A stretch of 64,000 nucleotides of DNA from Oscillospiraceae bacterium (GTDB lineage Bacteria; Bacillota; Clostridia; UBA1381), in NCBI GenBank assembly GCA_022509025.1, contig JAFLUB010000008.1, positions 1 to 64,000 of the forward strand, written 5' to 3'. Shown here piece by piece: positions 4,252-63,564 of the stretch. How positions within the stretch are numbered: the first letter of the stretch is position 1; every line of letters begins with the position of its first letter. The translations under genes and the position numbers were made by a program. Under the pieces are notes generated by a model. It ran no database searches. It saw only the letters and a list, made by a program, of their open reading frames with translations, and was not told where the DNA came from.

Positions 4252-7200
4252 ATGAAAAGTAAACTTTTCAAGAAGGTTGTTGCGGCAGTATCGGCTGTTT
4301 CGATGCTGGCATCAATGGCCTTTGTAATTCCGGCGAGCGCTGCATGGACTGCTCCGCAGTATGGCGCTGCCGATGCTACATATTCGGGCACGACAGACAA
4401 GTTAACCAAGGATAAAGAAAGTACTGTCGATGGCGAACCTGTCAAGTTTGACATTCTCGGCTATGTGGCTGGAGGCGTTAGTGATGCGACAGTGCCGGAT
4501 AATGCCGGAACGGCAACATTCAAGGTAAATGTAACAGATGCAGGCGACTATGATGTTATGGTTACGGTGTACAATCCTAATAAGCGCCGTGTTGACCTGC
4601 AAGTTGGAACTAAGCCGTATTTGTTCTCGGTAGAAACCGGTGGGGATTATATGTCGGCGTGGACGTTGCTTAACAATGATGCAAAACCGCTGGCTACATA
4701 CACATTTGAAAATGTATCTCTGGAAGCGGGAGATAATGACATTGTAGTCGGTACAAACAATGGTGAGGAATGGGCGCCGGATCTTGTAGGTATCGACGTT
4801 ACAGCTGCTTCTGCTGACGATGATACACCGGGTACAGACGCAACAGACGCACCGGGCACAGATGCAACAGATGCGCCTGACACAGACGCAACAGATGCAC
4901 CAGATACAGATGAACCGAAGGTTGGCATTGTTTATGCTGACGGTACAGTGACTGTAACAGTTGATGATGAAGAATTAACAAATGCTGTACTTATTAACGC
5001 TCAGTATGACGGCACAACACTTGAAAGTGTGTCTACATATGACCTGACATTCACAGACGGCGTTGCAACACAGGCTCTTGCAGGTGCTGTAAACGGCTCA
5101 AAGCTTATGGTATGGACTAAGCTTAGTGATGAGGACGGCAGCCTTAAGCCTGTATGTGGTGCGATTGATGTGACAGGCGGTGTTGAAGCGACACCGAAGC
5201 CGACAGTTGAAGCGACACCGGAAGCTACACCGGATGGCGGAGGTGACACAACACCGACAGAAGCGCCGACAGAGGCACCGACAATTGAACCGACAGAGGC
5301 ACCTCCGGCGAAGGAATACATCTATGAAAGAGGTATAAAGACGGCTTGGTCTAATGCTGACTTGGAAGACTGGACTCATACAGGCGACGCTTCGGGTAAG
5401 CCGACAATAAACGCTGATCACGGTTTGTACTGCGATACCAATATGACAAGCTCTGTAACAAAGACATTTGACATATCGGACAATGCGGTTGTTACATATG
5501 AGGCTGAATTCTATGTTGAAAACAGTACGGGTCGTGATAGTAACTACGCATACCTCAAGTTTGGTTCGGCGTTGACATTTGGCTATAACAGCACATATAA
5601 CCTGTTCTACAGCCTTGACGGAGGCGCAACATATAAAACGCCGGCAATAGTAAACAGCGCAAAGGGTAAGACATTAAAGATTGTTGCTGTTATAAACACC
5701 AGCGCAAACAGAGTGATAAGCGTGTCGATTGACGGCACAGAGATTGCGGCGCTTACTAACGCTAATATTGCTCCGGGCGCGACATATAACAGCGTTACTG
5801 AAGGCTTCGTAAGAGCAGGAAGCGTAAACTGGAATACTCTGTACGGTCTGAAGTCTATAGGCGTATCGGAAGAAATTGACGATACGGTATATGTTCTTGT
5901 TACATATAATGTAGACGGCAAGATAACAACAGAGTCTTTGGCTCAGGGCGGTACAGTTGCTGAAATTCCCAACACTGACAAACTCGGTTACATATTTGAC
6001 GGCTGGAAGGTAGGAGATACGGAAGAAGTTATCTCTACGGAAGCGTTGGCTCAAAGAGCTATTAGCGCAGATACCACATTTACAGCTCAGTATCATTTGA
6101 ACCCAGAGTATGTTCAGAGTATTGCTAAAGTTGAATTTATAGATGCAGAAGGCAAGGGTATATTACCGAGAGATGTAAAAGCATATAAATATCCGACAGA
6201 ACTTGGAGCGATTGACTATCATCTCTATGAAATCAAGGTAACAAGCGACACTGGCGACGATATTACGGCTGATTGTGAAATTACATGGACTGCAGTCGGC
6301 GGCGGTGGTGAGGACGCAAACTATTTCAATTTAGTAGAGAAAAAAGACGACGATGATGAATCAGCGATTGTAGCTTCAAAGAGATATACAAGAATGGTAC
6401 AGAGCGGAGAGTCATGGTTCGGTTATATCAAGGTTGACGTTACATATGACCCTGCAAATTCAGATGACGAATCAAAGAATACAACAGGCACCGCTCAGAT
6501 TCCTTGCGCGGCTCTGGAGAGCGGAACGGTTGCAGGTCAGATTATGCCTGCTGCTGGTTATCGTGCAAGCATGGATTACTATGTTGACGATATTGTAGGC
6601 TATGTAGCAACTTCAGACGATTATAGTTATGGCTTCGATCCGGTTCTCAACAACTGGTGTATCGTAGGCTCGAATCCGGCAAGAGACTTAGTTCTTGTAA
6701 AGGAAGCAGGCAAGAAAGCTCTGAAATTCACAAATACAGGCGGAAACAGAGGGGGAAGTAGCTCGTCTTGCGTTGGTACATATGCATTCCCGCAGCAGTC
6801 TGCACAGTATGTCTTTGAAACAATTGTTAAATTTGAAGGCGCGACAAGAATAGGTGTTTGGGATAAGACACCTAACAATGGTGGTGCTGTTGCTGAATGG
6901 GCTGTATCATTTGACGGTGATAGTTCAATAACAGCAGGAGAAGGAAAAATCACAGGCATTGATAAAACCAAATGGTATAAACTTGTTGTCACAAGTGATC
7001 CGGCAAGTAAGCTGTACTCGGTATATGCATATGAGGAGGACGGAACGCCGGTTGGTTCAATAACAGACGTTGCAGGCGGAGCAGCAGGAAAGTTCCTTTG
7101 TGTTGACTATGGTTTCCCGATTTATTTCAACAGCTTAAGAGCATACGTTCCTACGCTTGATACAATTTCAATAACATCGGATGTCGATGTTGTAGCTGTT

Positions 7201-48433: not shown

Positions 48434-48769
48434 ATGGACAAACACAAGGACAATGGGATTTGTATGGGGCGACAAGATATGCTAAGATACTCCCATGAGG
48501 TGATTAGTATGAGCGATTACGACAAAAATTTATTCCATAAAGTTTACAGAGAAATAAGCGAACAGCTTGGAATAGAAGCGGCTTTGACTATTCATCAGAT
48601 GTTCAAGGGAACTCAGGTATGTTTCCCTGTTAGATTTTTGGATAATCAGTGCGTAAAGGAGATGATTATTAAAGAGTATGATGGCACAAACACCAAAAAG
48701 CTGGCAATAAAATATGATTATTCCGAAAAAAGCATAAGGCGGATAATTAAAGAAAGTACAAAGAAATAA
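48434..48769 (+). CDS. Mor-like transcription activator
   Basis: A 111-residue protein similar to the Mor/C family of phage activators. The dimerisation part EQLGIEAALTIHQMFKGTQV and CFPVRFLDN is followed by a C-terminal helix-turn-helix (YDGTNTKKLAIKYDYSEKSI, then RRIIKES). Relatives are common in phages and integrated elements. GGAGG lies six bases before the ATG at 48434. A second good start (GAGGTG, ATG at 48509) would give an 86-residue form. The target is unknown. It is separated by 12 bases from the next gene, so the two are co-transcribed. Confidence 0.72.
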   Translation: MDKHKDNGICMGRQDMLRYSHEVISMSDYDKNLFHKVYREISEQLGIEAALTIHQMFKGTQVCFPVRFLDNQCVKEMIIKEYDGTNTKKLAIKYDYSEKSIRRIIKESTKK

Positions 48770-48781
48770 GGAGGATGAGTT

Positions 48782-49828
48782 ATGGGATTATTTGATAAGC
48801 TCTCAGATACCGCAAATAAAATGAAATCTACTATAGATGAAAAAAGAGAGGAAGCGGCACAAAAGAGAGCGGAAGCAGCTGCATTAGACGCTGAATTTAA
48901 GGAAAAGGCAAAACAGAAGGCAGATGAAATCACAAAATTTATTTTAGAGCATGGCGATGACAGCAAGGGCGGATTTTACGCATCAAACGGCGTAGACAAC
49001 ATCATAAACTTTACAAAGGAGTTTTATGATAAAATCTTACTGCCAGCAAACAGCGTAAAGCAATCATACATTTCAATGTATCCGTACTTGAACGATAAGA
49101 CCATAAAAGCGTTTACAAAGGGATTTCCAAATCACGGTACAACCGAAAGAGATGTTTTGCATTTAAAAGACCCGAAGAAGCAGGAATTTCTACTGACAAC
49201 AGAAAACTTTTATTTCAAAGTGTGTCTTGAGGAAAACGAAAAATACTTTGCAATGGGATGTGTTCCGTGTAAGAATATCAATACGTTTTCTTTGGAGAAA
49301 TCAGACGAGAGCTATATTTTTAAATGTGATACATACGAAGTGGCAAAGCTCCCTATCACCAACGGACGTGAGGAGGATTTTATCACTCTTAATGATTATT
49401 TCAGATGTATAGAAAACAGTGATTTTGAAATAATAGACGAGGAAGTAAATGACTTAATTCGGAAAAAGATTGGCGAAAAGGTTTACAGTGATGTTAAAAA
49501 GTACATGGTATATGATGATGAACTTATGATGTATTTTGCGTGGGGATTAGACAGCTTTACCGCAAAGGATTACATTGTCTGCACAAATAAGCAGATTATA
49601 ATTCTTGACAGAGAAGCCTTTGGAGCTACAGCTAACGTTAAGCAGCTATATTATGGCATTGTTAATTGTGGCATGGTCGTTTGTGCCTGTGCAAACGTAA
49701 TCTGCCACTCTGTTATCGTAGCTGTCGGCCGTTGTCACTACGATTGTGGCACTTTTAGACCTTGCTTGTATCCACGCATCCCACGAACTATTTTTGTAGC
49801 GACTAAGTCGGGCACCACAACTAATTAG
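48782..49828 (+). CDS. PH-like domain protein with a chimeric, truncated C-terminus
   Basis: The frame is 348 residues. Residues 1-60 are a charged coiled coil (KMKSTIDEKREEAAQKRAEA), and the middle is unassigned. Near residue 240 a bacterial PH-like domain begins (DDELMMYFAWGLDSFTAKDY, IVCTNKQIIILDRE) and is cut after NVKQLYY (about 49650). The last 59 residues are Cys-rich and unlike any domain (GMVVCACANVICHSVIVAVG) because they are the antisense of a phage tail gene fragment. The native gene was therefore truncated by recombination. Its function is unknown. AGGAGG lies at proper distance from the ATG. Confidence 0.6.
   Translation: MGLFDKLSDTANKMKSTIDEKREEAAQKRAEAAALDAEFKEKAKQKADEITKFILEHGDDSKGGFYASNGVDNIINFTKEFYDKILLPANSVKQSYISMYPYLNDKTIKAFTKGFPNHGTTERDVLHLKDPKKQEFLLTTENFYFKVCLEENEKYFAMGCVPCKNINTFSLEKSDESYIFKCDTYEVAKLPITNGREEDFITLNDYFRCIENSDFEIIDEEVNDLIRKKIGEKVYSDVKKYMVYDDELMMYFAWGLDSFTAKDYIVCTNKQIIILDREAFGATANVKQLYYGIVNCGMVVCACANVICHSVIVAVGRCHYDCGTFRPCLYPRIPRTIFVATKSGTTTN
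49655..49826 (-). pseudogene. Phage tail-protein fragment
   Basis: Minus-strand reading gives 57 open codons, ELISCGARLSRYKNSSWDAW followed by ARSKSATIVVTTADSYDNRV and ADYVCTGTNDHATINNA. This resembles the region ahead of the beta-helix in tail proteins of gut Clostridia phages (SKSAT and ADYVC-GTND are the remembered cues). There is no start, and the frame stops where the PH-domain gene resumes. It is joined directly to a tape-measure fragment upstream, so kilobases of a tail module have been lost. Confidence 0.5.
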
Positions 49829-50215
49829 TTCTTGTTCGATAACTGTTTCTGAATTTCTAAGAGTTGACTACGCTTGTCTCTTGCATCTGCATAAGTGATA
49901 TTATTGTCAGCAAGAGCGTTTTTTAATTCCTCTATTTTTTTCTTATTCTCATCAATAGAAGAACTTTGTTCTTTAAATTCCTCAGTCGCTCGTTGAGCCT
50001 GCTCTGACATTTCTTTCGAAGCGCTTATCATTTTAGCTATGCCTTGAATGGCAAAAGAAATACCGATTGCAAATGCCGTATTTAACACCCTCGACAATAG
50101 CTGAACACCAATAGATGCTATCCGTGATGTTTGTCCAATTGCCTCGATATTAACAGTGGCTCCTTGTGCCTTCTGCGCCATTTTTGCCGCCGCATCTGAT
50201 GCATTAGTTATTGTT
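49825..50215 (-). pseudogene. Phage tail tape-measure protein fragment
   Basis: About 130 open codons on the minus strand, entering from about 50215 and ending at TAA 49825. A hydrophobic stretch (VLNTAFAIGISFAIQGIAKM) precedes a coiled coil (EKEMSE-type, SSSIDENKKKIEELKNALAD, then YADARDKRSQLLEIQKQL), as in tape-measure proteins, which normally exceed 600 residues. Both ends are truncated, so it is a relic. Confidence 0.55.
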
Positions 50216-50555: not shown

Positions 50556-50575
50556 TGATTGTACATAGAGAAGGG

Positions 50576-50609
50576 GAGTTGCTTGTTTCAGGCAACTCTT
50601 CTTTTGTTT
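50576..50609 (+). terminator. Terminator before the first duplicated promoter region
   Basis: GAGTTGC pairs with GCAACTC around nine bases, followed by TTCTTTTGTTTT. Confidence 0.75.
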
Positions 50610-50612
50610 TAT

Positions 50613-50732
50613 CAAAAGTCAACCTCATACCACTATTTGTAATATAAATGTAACATGACACAAGATATAGTACAATATTTCGATACAATATTGCGAGAAA
50701 TGTTGACAATTTTTGGTTTTATGATATAATAT
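50613..50732 (+). promoter_or_regulatory. Duplicated upstream regulatory region, copy 1
   Basis: 120 bases that recur with few changes at 57833-57954. Shared blocks are CAAAAGTCAACC, CATACCACTATTTGTAAT, TAAATGTAA, ACACAAGATATAGTAC, ATTTCGA and TTTATGATATAATAT. It ends in a promoter (TTGACA at 50703, 16 bases, TATAAT at 50725-50730), 34 bases ahead of the TTG start at 50764. Confidence 0.8.
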
Positions 50733-50763: not shown

Positions 50764-51429
50764 TTGACTAATTTAAAAAACGTAGATAATGTCAGCAACA
50801 TAGTTGAAATTGGAAATAATCACATAAAGTATTATAATGAAACTTTAAAAATTTCCAATATATCACGAACATGGATTTTCAGATTTCAAAATGTTGAAAA
50901 GAAAAAGTTTGAAGAAGAAAAAATTGCTTATGCAAATGCTAAATCTCGGTATGAAGCATCTGAGATTCGAAAAAAGAATGAAACGGTACGGAATATACTC
51001 ATTGCCACTGCGGTTTCGTTAATCTTTTCATTAGTATGTTTTTCCTTCAAAGCTGCTGCTGGAGCAGTCATGTTTTTGTGCCTTACAGGAGTTTTAGCTT
51101 ATATAGCTTATCGTGTATATAAAAGAAATACGGCTTATCCTTATTCGCCACCACTGGAAAGACCGTTCCCTGATAAATTTGGACTTGGTATAGAGATGAA
51201 TTCAGGTTATAGAACTATTTTTACTGCAATAGGAGATACGGGGGTACGAGCATTGAGAAAACTCCAAAATGACATCGATGATGCCGATGTACATAAGGAA
51301 ACCACTGTTTTTAATATGAACGACTATAATATAACGGTTGAAAACAATGATGGCATTATCAGCACTGGAGATAATGCTGAAAATATTATCAGCAAAGAAA
51401 GGCAGGATGATCATGAGTTCAACGATTAA
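50764..51429 (+). CDS. Two-TM protein with a C-terminal motif shared with the next gene
   Basis: 221 residues from TTG at 50764 (GGAGG upstream). The N-terminal part (VSNIVEIGNNHIKYYNETLK, ISNISRTWIFRFQN) and the part after the membrane resemble a split PH-like domain of DUF6232 type (FGLGIEMNSGYRTIF). Two hydrophobic helices lie at about 79-118 (ILIATAVSLIFSLVCF, AVMFLCLTGVLAYIAY). The C-terminal 30 residues contain NITVENNDGIISTGDNAENI, nearly the same as the N-terminus of the protein encoded next. This is how amyloid-signalling partners are built, but no such activity is shown. The function is otherwise unknown. Confidence 0.6.
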   Translation: MTNLKNVDNVSNIVEIGNNHIKYYNETLKISNISRTWIFRFQNVEKKKFEEEKIAYANAKSRYEASEIRKKNETVRNILIATAVSLIFSLVCFSFKAAAGAVMFLCLTGVLAYIAYRVYKRNTAYPYSPPLERPFPDKFGLGIEMNSGYRTIFTAIGDTGVRALRKLQNDIDDADVHKETTVFNMNDYNITVENNDGIISTGDNAENIISKERQDDHEFND

Positions 51430-51724
51430 CGTAACCAATAACAACGGTATTATTAGCACAGGCATGAAAAGTAAAAATATAGTATATCATAACCAAGAGG
51501 ATATACGGTGGGAAAGACTCAAAAAAGAAATTAGCGATTTAAAATCAAGCTCAGATGCATCGATAAGAAAGTTTGCCGATGAAGCAGAGGAAGCGGCGAA
51601 AAAAGAGGATAAGCGAGGGATTCGTGATGTGTTGAAGAAATGGCTTCCATGTATAGGCGGACTTATAGAATCATCATACTATATTATTAAAATTGCAAAA
51701 AACTTTAACATCGGAATTGGATAA
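51413..51724 (+). CDS. Small protein with N-terminal shared motif and C-terminal helical domain
   Basis: 103 residues starting MSSTINVTNNNGIISTGMKS, whose residues 5-24 match the C-terminal motif of the upstream protein. A charged helical part follows (KKEISDLKSSSDASIRKFAD), ending in a hydrophobic/amphipathic tail (WLPCIGGLIESSYYIIKIAK). The ATG at 51413 lies inside the upstream gene (17-base overlap), so translation is coupled. The tail could act on membranes. I do not recognise the family. A terminator closes the pair. Confidence 0.6.
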   Translation: MSSTINVTNNNGIISTGMKSKNIVYHNQEDIRWERLKKEISDLKSSSDASIRKFADEAEEAAKKEDKRGIRDVLKKWLPCIGGLIESSYYIIKIAKNFNIGIG

Positions 51725-51751: not shown

Positions 51752-51787
51752 AAAAGAGTTTTTATCTGTTATGATAGAAACTCTTTT
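51752..51787. terminator. Bidirectional terminator
   Basis: AAAAGAGTTT pairs with AAACTCTTTT around 16 bases, between the converging two-gene unit and the GNAT gene. Confidence 0.8.
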
Positions 51788-56137: not shown

Positions 56138-57004
56138 TCAATCTATATCATCTATTTCTGTTTCAATATATATTGCAACAGGAGCAATGTGTACTTTTTT
56201 ATATTTATTGCTCGTAGTGAACGTATCTTCCATAGCCCTACAAGCATCAAACACATTTGTATACGAGTCGCCAATTGTATTTTCGAAATCACCTGTTGGA
56301 GTTTCTGGTGCATTCATTAATTTGGGAATAGATGTTATTCTTCCTACCATTGTCCAATCCATCATTGGGGTATCACTATATAATTCTCTAATATTTGTTG
56401 GGATCATCCGCAACCAATTCCTATTAATAGTGCCTTTATATAAAAGGCGCGGATTGTTTTTTGAGCATATGTTAATTTCATATGATTGGTTGTGGAAATT
56501 GTCAATCATCAATTTAGCATTTTCTAATATCCGCTCATCAACATGCAGAGCATGTTCTTTCGCATATCTAGTTACCCCATTTTTAGAAATATCAGTATTC
56601 GTATTGGACATTAATATTGAATATGCAACAGCTTCGCCAAGCTTATTGAAATTCTCCGTATAATCTCTCAGTCTACTATAATCGTGAATTATCGCTCGTC
56701 CCTGAATCTTAACAATAAAGTCATTTCGGAAATCTTCAAGAGATATATCTTCGACATCAGATAAGTCTCTTATACATTTTTGTAGCCTTTCTTCTAATTT
56801 GTTGTACATATGGTCATATAAAATTTTATTTTCTACTCTTATAGACGCCTCAGCAACTTTTGCATCTAATTTTCGCTGTTTATCGGTAGTTGTCTTTTCC
56901 GCCGCGTATGAGTCTGTTACTGCCTCAACAACTCCTTCAAATACCTGTGAATACAGAGAGTATAATAAATCATTGTCCAAATAAATAAAGTCCCTTATTT
57001 TCAT
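56138..57004 (-). CDS. DUF6414-like protein
   Basis: 288 residues starting MKIRDFIYLDNDLLYSLYSQ, the hallmark opening of DUF6414-like proteins, which have no known activity. A helical central part with coiled-coil character (TTTDKQRKLDAKVAEASIRV, YNKLEERLQKCIRDL) precedes a C-terminal alpha/beta part (SYEINICSKNNPRLLYKG, VHIAPVAIYIETEI). Its ATG overlaps the stop of the small membrane protein gene (ATGA), so the products are made together and may form a membrane complex. Confidence 0.65.
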   Translation of the reverse strand: MKIRDFIYLDNDLLYSLYSQVFEGVVEAVTDSYAAEKTTTDKQRKLDAKVAEASIRVENKILYDHMYNKLEERLQKCIRDLSDVEDISLEDFRNDFIVKIQGRAIIHDYSRLRDYTENFNKLGEAVAYSILMSNTNTDISKNGVTRYAKEHALHVDERILENAKLMIDNFHNQSYEINICSKNNPRLLYKGTINRNWLRMIPTNIRELYSDTPMMDWTMVGRITSIPKLMNAPETPTGDFENTIGDSYTNVFDACRAMEDTFTTSNKYKKVHIAPVAIYIETEIDDID

Positions 57005-61037: not shown

Positions 61038-61481
61038 CTATTGTATTAAAGTCAATGTAATGTCCTCTGATGGAGCATCTGTGTCCTGAACAGAAAAATG
61101 CACATTTTCTTGTTGGATTAATGTATATTCACACTTGTGCCCCCAATTTGCAAACCTACAGGGATCAAAGAAGATTAACCATACAGGGATGTTGTAATTA
61201 CTTAGTTCGCTAAAAATTACATCTCCCCAGTTGTTTGTTATATCTTTAGGATATAACATTTTTTTTGATATATATAACTCAGTTTGTTCGTTTGAACGAT
61301 GTTTATATAGGTCTTTAGCCACATTAACCGCTTCGTCAAACGACAGTTCGTTGTGTTTATGCAAATATTCACTCTCCTTTTCAAAATATCTTCCTATTGG
61401 AATATACTGGTCTAAAAGTAAATTTATGTGAAAATATTTATTACTTATATCGACAGTTTCTATGTAAGCAGTATTAATCAT
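61038..61481 (-). CDS. Hypothetical protein between ATPase and protease
   Basis: 147 residues. Its ATG overlaps the ATPase stop (ATGA), and the protease TTG follows 22 bases after its stop. Visible parts are an N-terminal beta stretch (IETVDISNKYFHINLLLDQY), a helix (SFDEAVNVAKDLYKHRSNEQ) and WLIFFDPCRFANWGHKCEYT with Cys/His residues. No family is recognised. It could be an adaptor or an inhibitor of the protease. Confidence 0.6.
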   Translation of the reverse strand: MINTAYIETVDISNKYFHINLLLDQYIPIGRYFEKESEYLHKHNELSFDEAVNVAKDLYKHRSNEQTELYISKKMLYPKDITNNWGDVIFSELSNYNIPVWLIFFDPCRFANWGHKCEYTLIQQENVHFSVQDTDAPSEDITLTLIQ

Positions 61482-62695
61482 TCTATTTTCCCCCCAATTT
61501 GTTTAATTTCATACTCTTCCAATTTCTTTAATATAAAAGGAGAATGAGTAGTTACTATAAATTGACAATTTGGGAATAACTGCGTTAATGCTGGCAAAAG
61601 ATTAGTTTGCCATCTTGGATGTATATGGCAATCAATTTCATCGATCAAAACGACAGCCTCCATTTCGTAAAATTCGATATTCTCATTTTTCTCTGGATTA
61701 TATGACAACGATAATCTGTGAAGTAATTCTGCAATAATAATAAATACACTCTTAAATCCATCGCTTAACATATTAAGATTTACAATCTCCTCAGTTTCAA
61801 TGTCTTTAAACAATATTTCTCCAAGTTCCGAAATTTCATAAAATTGTAATGGGTCAAATAATTTGTTACATGCTTTTATAAAGTGGTTACGAATTTTCTC
61901 CGTGTGAGGATTGGGTTTCTTTAAAAGCGCAAAGTCTAAGTTAAAAAACCATTGTTTTAAATCAAAATATCTTGGAGATAGGCATCCATCTTTGGAAATG
62001 GTGCTACTTAAAGCCGACACTTTGGGTCTTGTAATCGTATTACTAAAATTGGGACTCGCAGGATTTTCTTCGGTTAAATAGCGGAACGCATCAAAATAAA
62101 CAATCAGTGTCCCATTTAATTTGCATAAATGGCTCAAAAATGCAGCATAAGGGGCTGTCTCTCTTTCAAAGTCCTCCGTTGAGGTCAGTTTTTTTTCAAA
62201 GAAATATGGTACAGAAAGACCATATTGGAATTCTTGCTCAAAGTTTTCGGTCATAAAACAATTTAACCCATATCTACTTACAGGATCTATATCTATAGGG
62301 ATATCTTCAGACAAATATACTTCGTCAGATAGAATAGGTTCTTCATAGGAATCTGCTTCAACCTTAATAATATCATATTCTGATGAAATTGTACTGAATT
62401 GTTGATGTCTTTTTAGCGCATTTTTTTCGTAGTCATTCAATAAAAAATTAATGCTCACAGATGCAAATTTCTCTCCCAAGCGTATAGCTTTTTTATCAAA
62501 GATATCTCCACCATAAGACTTATTTGCAATGGAAAAAGTTGATACTATTGATTTTAATATTGTTGTTTTTCCAGAGCCATTAGCACCAACTAAAGCACAC
62601 ACTTGTAGGGGCTGTTCAGTATTTGGATTTTGCAAATTCAGAACAAAATCCGAAAAACACTTTAAATTTTTTAATGTAATAGAAGTTAATTTCAT
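61478..62695 (-). CDS. RecF/OLD-like ABC-type ATPase (AAA_21 type)
   Basis: 405 residues from the ATG at 62695 (GGAGG nine bases upstream; earlier in-frame ATGs give a hydrophobic extension without a site). It opens KLTSITLKNLKCFSDFVLNL, with Walker A VGANGSGKTT (Lys43), a degenerate signature LNMLSDGFKSVF, Walker B AVVLIDEIDCHIHPRWQ and the H-loop IVTTHSPFIL. About 270 residues between Walker A and signature form the variable insert. No Toprim or HNH domain follows, unlike OLD or Septu proteins. It is the first gene of the unit with the caspase-like protease and would be its sensor/NTPase. Confidence 0.85.
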   Translation of the reverse strand: MKLTSITLKNLKCFSDFVLNLQNPNTEQPLQVCALVGANGSGKTTILKSIVSTFSIANKSYGGDIFDKKAIRLGEKFASVSINFLLNDYEKNALKRHQQFSTISSEYDIIKVEADSYEEPILSDEVYLSEDIPIDIDPVSRYGLNCFMTENFEQEFQYGLSVPYFFEKKLTSTEDFERETAPYAAFLSHLCKLNGTLIVYFDAFRYLTEENPASPNFSNTITRPKVSALSSTISKDGCLSPRYFDLKQWFFNLDFALLKKPNPHTEKIRNHFIKACNKLFDPLQFYEISELGEILFKDIETEEIVNLNMLSDGFKSVFIIIAELLHRLSLSYNPEKNENIEFYEMEAVVLIDEIDCHIHPRWQTNLLPALTQLFPNCQFIVTTHSPFILKKLEEYEIKQIGGKIE

Positions 62696-63564
62696 AGACT
62701 TATCCTCCAGTATAATAATATATAATTTAATTATATAGATATATGAAGAAAAAGTCAATACACATATCAAAAAATAAACATATCATGACAAAAATTGCGC
62801 TACCAGCCAATTATATCTATTACCTTCTTATCGATCTCGGCAATGTGAGGTATTTATATTATTTAAAATCATGTTTCTATTTGGTTATGCTATTTAGTCT
62901 TTATTTTATACTTCTCCGTTAGCATGACAGAGAAGCCACAATCTACTAATCACTTTATTATATGGGCTATTCGTATAATATCGTGTTTCAACCGTGGTCT
63001 TTAAACCACCGTTCCATTGGTGTATTCAACTTTCCCAATGGGTTTGGACTTTCTGTTAAACGCCTATCAAGCATATATGATAGACGCCGAGGATTAAAGT
63101 CTCTGAACATCCCACAAGTAGTTGGTGCTTTAAGATTTATCGCTCTCTATGAACAAATTGCACTTAGTAGAATACAATAAGATTCATGCACACTACTGAA
63201 TGCTCACGCATTTCGTCTATTTCAAATGAAATATCTGTGGTTTTGCTGCTGATATTGCACTTATCGGGTTATATTTGTTGAACCGAATGTTTCTCGGATT
63301 TGCATCCTTCCACAGCTCTTGTATTGTTTTATACGTTTCCGCAACAGGATTCCCTGCACCACCTAATAACAACGATAAATTTAACGTCATTAGGTTACAA
63401 GTAGCTTCTTTTCGTGCGTGGAGTATACTCCGTCTCAGCAATTTAACCTAACACTAACGTCTATTTGTTTAGGCGAGTTCATTGATTCACGCACTATATC
63501 TTCTTTAGGTTTACCATGAGCCAAATGTGCTCACCTCCAATTCTTTATCAACTAATTTTAAATC
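62696..63564. other. Gene-poor stretch with probable gene relics
   Basis: No frame here has both a ribosome site and a recognisable product. On the minus strand 63217-63441 is open (LSLLLGGAGNPVAETYKTIQ, then ELWKDANPRNIRFNKYNP) and looks like decayed coding sequence without a start. Another short open piece lies at about 63451-63530. On the plus strand 62962-63180 is open but featureless. Confidence 0.4.

Follow-up and report, generated by a model that had tools for sequence, protein, structure and literature searches.

Two adjacent, overlapping genes of a Clostridia genome, designated here A and B, carry closely similar stretches of about 20 residues at their facing ends. The question raised by this locus is whether the two products are joined through this motif in the manner of amyloid signalling pairs, as the original prediction had proposed. 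The window, i.e., the entire stretch of 64,000 nucleotides that was analysed, contains the following features of the pair:

50703..50730, + strand: promoter of the A-B pair, TTGACA-16-TATAAT with an extended TG, agreeing with the consensus at 12 of 12 positions
50764..51429, + strand: gene A, membrane protein of 221 aa; TTG start at 50764, preceded by AAAGGAGG
51328..51387, + strand: A copy of the shared motif, NITVENNDGIISTGDNAENI, in the C-terminal tail of A (by alignment; pLDDT <50)
51413..51724, + strand: gene B, ATG start at 51413, 103 aa
51422..51481, + strand: B copy of the shared motif, TINVTNNNGIISTGMKSKNI, at the N-terminus of B (by alignment; pLDDT <50)
51752..51787, + strand: A/T-rich hairpin (stem of 15 pairs; -17.2 kcal/mol, z -5.26) with a U-rich stretch 3' of it

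The two reading frames overlap by 17 nt. The hairpin 3' of B is probably a bidirectional terminator, judging from its sequence; it is absent from the list produced by a G+C-based terminator scan, and the scan reported a terminator-like hairpin of the gene preceding A at 50569-50605. Because a consensus promoter lies 5' of the pair and terminator-like hairpins occur on both sides, A and B look like a compact operon that would form a self-contained transcription unit.

No conserved defence neighbourhood was found around A and B. The adjoining region 48434-50181 holds a Mor/late-transcription-activator gene and a reverse-strand fragment with weak matches to tape-measure and tail families, which together suggest a prophage remnant. 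The protein of 348 aa encoded at 48782-49828 (+) has a long helical start and, by eye, the look of a PH domain, with no match in Pfam, PHROG or PADLOC. About 10 kb from the pair, an AAA ATPase of 430 aa (61478-62770, -) has PtuA of the Septu system as its best PADLOC match (E 3.8e-47), and a PtuB-like partner of this ATPase was not identified. A DUF6414 protein (56138-57004, -; E 9.5e-14) lies among genes of unknown function in the window.

The A copy of the motif, ITVENNDGIISTGDNAENI, and the B copy, INVTNNNGIISTGMKSKNI, share 12 of 20 residues, and local alignment of the whole proteins (score 67) detects similarity at the facing ends only. The motif itself and the absence of similarity elsewhere in the two proteins are thus as originally described, in both position and sequence. 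Shuffled sequences scored 31.5 on average and 60 at most, with none of 5000 reaching the observed value. Different codons are used at 9 of the 12 identical residues, and the underlying nucleotides agree in 35 of 60 positions; the likeness has therefore been kept at the protein level and does not reflect a recent copy of the DNA. In 5402 tail-versus-head comparisons across the ORFs of three loci, no combination other than the A-B pairs scored above 41. The window pair appears there with a score of 38, since the mechanically assigned ORF start at 51338 shifts the head of B; with the ATG at 51413 the score is 67. A degenerate DNA pattern of the motif core matched once in 398 genomes of the phylum, namely in gene A, and motif DNA patterns searched against viral contigs matched in unrelated proteins. 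Hydrophobic residues followed by G[DN] form a pattern that has also been reported from established amyloid signalling motifs (PMC9815663).

Protein A shows hydropathy peaks at residues 77-95 and 97-115, which bears out its earlier description as a protein with two predicted membrane helices. The AlphaFold models of A and B were built from two-sequence alignments and are of medium to low confidence (mean pLDDT 61.5 and 69.1, respectively). In the model of A, four strands precede a long helix that contains the membrane hairpin; two further strands, a helix and a tail follow, and residues 191-221 of this tail fall below pLDDT 50. Foldseek and VIA-align recovered no fold relative of A except generic long-helix matches, so that the PH-like character first ascribed to it remains a guess. 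The fold searches with B gave weak matches to four-helix proteins only. Profile searches found no NTPase or repeat domain in A and no Pfam domain in B, and a search of solved structures by sequence yielded no relatives. In the model of B, an N-terminal region of mostly low pLDDT (<50 at residues 2-9 and 11-29) precedes a four-helix domain. The expectation of a small helical protein is consistent with this model, and that of a hydrophobic tail less so, as the hydrophobicity of the tail is moderate (Kyte-Doolittle mean of 1.03 over the best 19 residues) and its sequence indicates an amphipathic C-terminal helix rather than a clear transmembrane one. On the basis of the models, the motif-bearing tails of both proteins are probably disordered.

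Homologues of A and B are rare. Searches of the order, family, class and phylum genomes returned them only in G517, another Clostridia genome; A is missing from the 95 further genomes of the order that were searched, and B from 70 further genomes of the family. A scan of genome contigs likewise returned the G517 locus only, and no homologues were detected in viral contigs, plasmids or phages. Two further matches were rejected: one in G746 (E 6e-4) belongs to a flagellar protein resembling FliF, and a DUF6232 match in G430 is a transmembrane stretch of 66 aa. In G517 the homologues lie side by side, with 33-35% identity for A and 55% for B, and the motif copies, IQMETNEGAIVIGDNAQHIV in A and IKMQKNSGIINIGNGATYTV in B, occupy the same positions as in the window. 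The original prediction had named homologues without the motif as the finding that would speak against it; the single homologous pair found keeps the motif at both ends. Identity of the motif within a pair is 12/20 in the window and 9/20 in G517, compared with 7/20 and 7/20 across the two operons. Between the two B proteins, the motif is identical in 7 of 20 residues versus 47 of 79 for the remainder. The motif of B thus diverges faster than the remainder of B, yet the A and B motifs are closest within their own operon. The within-pair score in G517 is modest (42, the best unrelated comparison being 41).

A second line of evidence comes from the domain of A. The DUF6232 profile (PF19744) matches A of the window with E 0.012 and A of G517 with E 0.0024, and among 299 genomes of the phylum it gave a single match, in G289, a member of another family of the phylum. 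The bit scores (16.5, 18.7 and 22.5 for the window, G517 and G289, respectively) all lie below the curated cut-off of 27.4. Alignment of the window/G517 A profile to that of three DUF6232 proteins by hhalign covered 142 columns with a probability of 90.6% (E 1.3e-6), the latter profile including an Enterococcus protein that passes the DUF6232 cut-off at 33.3 bits. By profile comparison, the three A proteins are thus distant relatives of DUF6232. An approximate DUF6232-like probe found no match in plasmids, a result to which no weight is given. In G289, A is a membrane protein of 157 aa with the C-terminal end AGQNIKINIKNSQISGNAQILNDLVF; 20 nt downstream follows a gene for a protein of 114 aa that starts with MAVKITVKNSSISGNSEVLNRV. 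The order of the genes and the ends bearing the motif are the same as in the window, and the motif itself (IKINIKNSQISGNAQILN and VKITVKNSSISGNSEVLN; score 66, matched by 0 of 5000 shuffles) is a different one; codons differ at 8 of its 11 identical residues. Because this pair was found via the domain of A and not via the motif, it tests the layout independently. The tail-versus-head scores among the three pairs (67/38/21, 34/42/14 and 19/20/66) are highest on the diagonal. Judged by sequence, the motifs of these three split pairs are each cognate to the operon that carries them, a feature shared with known families of amyloid signalling. The B domains of the window/G517 type could not be joined to those of G289 and of the fused forms described below, as the profile comparison was not significant (P 0.02-0.07).

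Forms with a single, fused gene also occur. A tblastn search from the G289 protein identified a fused protein of 290 aa in an Enterococcus record (L026:2971-3843), which passes the DUF6232 cut-off (33.3 bits versus 27.4), and a search from this protein identified another of 281 aa in Streptococcus agalactiae (L027:5971-6816; 95% coverage, E 4e-17). In both, the DUF6232 membrane domain is followed by a linker in which Asn, Gly, His or Ser are abundant, and then by about 75 C-terminal residues that look helical from their sequence. The start of the Streptococcus linker, QNIKIDIKNQNIKGD, matches the G289 tail QNIKINIKNSQISGN, a similarity equalled by 3 of 5000 shuffles; B resembles the C-termini of the fusions in position and pattern only. 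In Enterococcus, the fusion gene stands directly behind EssC (TIGR03928, 1174 bits), a type VII secretion setting that was not seen at the split pairs and plays no role in the explanation given below. The record concerned (OR846636.1) is named Enterococcus phage Efs 1-1-1; because it carries a type VII secretion locus with EssC-like, YwqH-like and DUF4176 genes, it is probably bacterial chromosome. The Streptococcus fusion gene lies between purK-DUF4041 and purB, and this stretch (4595-6816 of the locus, CP147646.1), in which the fusion and DUF4041 are flanked by purK and purB, is chromosomal-looking in a record labelled as a plasmid.

Homotypic stacking of the motif is the best explanation of these findings, because the copies are near-identical, probably disordered, specific to their operon and kept at the protein level. 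We therefore favour, at somewhat less than an even chance, a two-gene module acting via a shared beta-arch motif, with A as the membrane anchor or receptor and B as the effector. Membrane-anchored A would present its copy on a disordered cytoplasmic C-terminal tail, and B, small, helical and either soluble or peripheral, would carry the cognate copy on its disordered N-terminal tail. Upon a change of state or clustering of A, its tails may assemble, by stacking, into a nucleus of cross-beta or solenoid-like form, onto which the tail of B would be recruited and templated. The helical domain of B, with its amphipathic C-terminal helix, would thereby be concentrated at the membrane, where B would serve as an effector, most likely one that acts on the membrane and arrests the cell in response to stress or phage. 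By analogy with known systems, we infer the cross-beta stacking, the placing of A upstream of B and the action of B on membranes or in defence. Against this reading stand the modest within-pair score in G517, the small number of split pairs known (three), the non-significant comparison of the B domains, the absence of a RHIM match and of similarity to two BASS3-type peptides, and the lack of both PADLOC matches to A or B and a conserved defence neighbourhood.

The strongest competitor, rather unlikely but deserving serious weight, is static docking, in which the two copies would form neighbouring rungs of a small beta-solenoid and hold A and B in a stable complex devoid of prion-like templating or signalling. 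The evidence for a cognate, co-evolving contact applies equally to such a complex, which would account for most of the findings. In the fused forms, the domains are joined by a strand-like linker rich in Asn and Gly, as if part of one stable structure, and a similar string, N-G-I-x-I-G-D-N-A, occurs in a viral repeat protein resembling a tail fibre. On the other hand, both copies are predicted to be disordered when alone, and near-identical rather than complementary sequences fit open-ended stacking, whereas a one-to-one dock needs no such near-identity.

The Enterococcus and Streptococcus fusions, with their repeat-like linkers, also bring to mind a split-gene relic: an ancestral protein composed of DUF6232, linker and helical domain, with an internal repeat in the linker, would have been divided, and the motifs would be leftover repeats with no present interaction. 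This is improbable, since the codons have diverged while the residues persist, and the best match of each motif within its own pair requires continuing selection for matching.

Slightly more improbable still is a toxin-antitoxin-like or immunity pair, in which one partner is toxic or protective and the other binds it through the motif with no amyloid involved. The overlapping two-gene operon, the strong promoter, the small size and the patchy distribution would suit such a pair, and the model of B is weakly similar to bacteriocin-immunity proteins with four helices (2fu2: Z 6.5, rmsd 2.5, 68 residues aligned; 2zrr: Z 5.9, rmsd 3.1, 69 residues aligned), a similarity below the level at which it would mean more than a common arrangement of helices. 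Searches of toxin and antitoxin families gave no match to A or B, neither protein matches any anti-phage model of PADLOC, and the AbiTii domain had no match in G000, G517 or G289. Near-identical motifs in both partners would, moreover, be unusual for a toxin and its inhibitor.

Chance or a recent local duplication of DNA, suggested by the spacing of the copies (<100 nt), can be dismissed as very improbable, given the shuffling result and the different codons at 9 of the 12 identical residues; a shared motif also recurs in the two other operons, and codon divergence in both the window and the G289 pairs rules out recent duplication as such.

If homotypic stacking in A-B pairs is correct, it may extend to a class of NLR-free amyloid-type signalling in single-celled Bacillota, a tentative generalization that we regard as possible and distinctly short of probable. 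In such a class, cross-beta motifs that are interchangeable and specific to each operon would let a DUF6232-type membrane receptor template a small helical effector; both parts would also be combined in fused proteins, of which one is encoded next to a type VII secretion ATPase. The amyloid signalling principle would then be widened to an NLR-free pair having a membrane protein as its presumed sensor and swappable motifs, DUF6232 would gain a testable role, and very short motifs would become available for studying how the specificity of cross-seeding is encoded. A literature search covering mostly papers free of subscription found neither a description of such a pair nor any paper that mentions DUF6232 or gives it a function. 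The family definition of DUF6232 (PF19744) itself includes neither the motif tails nor the paired helical gene.

The closest systems for comparison are the families BASS1-10, in which genes for NLR and Bell proteins are paired, the motif occupies the N-terminus of the NLR and the C-terminus of the effector, and the effector bears a Bell or, less often, a CHAT or TIR domain; they occur mainly in filamentous Actinobacteria and Cyanobacteria (PMC7889193, PMC8086366). By the authors' own account, searches for bacterial amyloid signalling have been biased to NLR/effector pairs (PMC7889193). Like the A-B pair, BASS pairs share a motif of about 20 residues at the protein ends of adjacent or overlapping genes, one partner being small and helical, and like the three A-B pairs they display several unrelated motif families in one layout. 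Unlike BASS, where the receptor is an NLR, A is a DUF6232-like membrane protein with no NLR, the ends are reversed (C-terminus of A, N-terminus of B), and the pair belongs to Clostridia. The similarity of the motif to two BASS3 or BASS3-like peptides (PMC8086366) is within the range of shuffles. As to RHIM and the fungal PP motif (PF12721, PF17046), the G517 copy AIVIGDNAQHI resembles, by eye, the hydrophobic-x-hydrophobic-G-D frame, whereas the A-B core contains no Gln; a search with PF12721 at E 10 found nothing in the window genome, and the weak matches of this profile in G517 and G289 lie outside these loci. With no NLR, reversed ends and no RHIM match, membership of A-B in BASS or RHIM is not supported by sequence. 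Of the original designation as a candidate amyloid signalling pair of BASS/HRAM type, the family assignment is not supported; the homotypic motif linking neighbouring products stands, recurring in G517 and replaced in G289 by another cognate motif. A mode of action like that of amyloid signalling is plausible by analogy. Compared with HET-S/NWD2 and the fungal NLR-HeLo systems, A-B pairs have no NLR, no detected HeLo-like domain and a single motif copy per partner; what the fungal systems have in common with the mechanism proposed here is a motif that passes a template from a sensor to a membrane-acting partner, on a tail that is disordered until it is templated.
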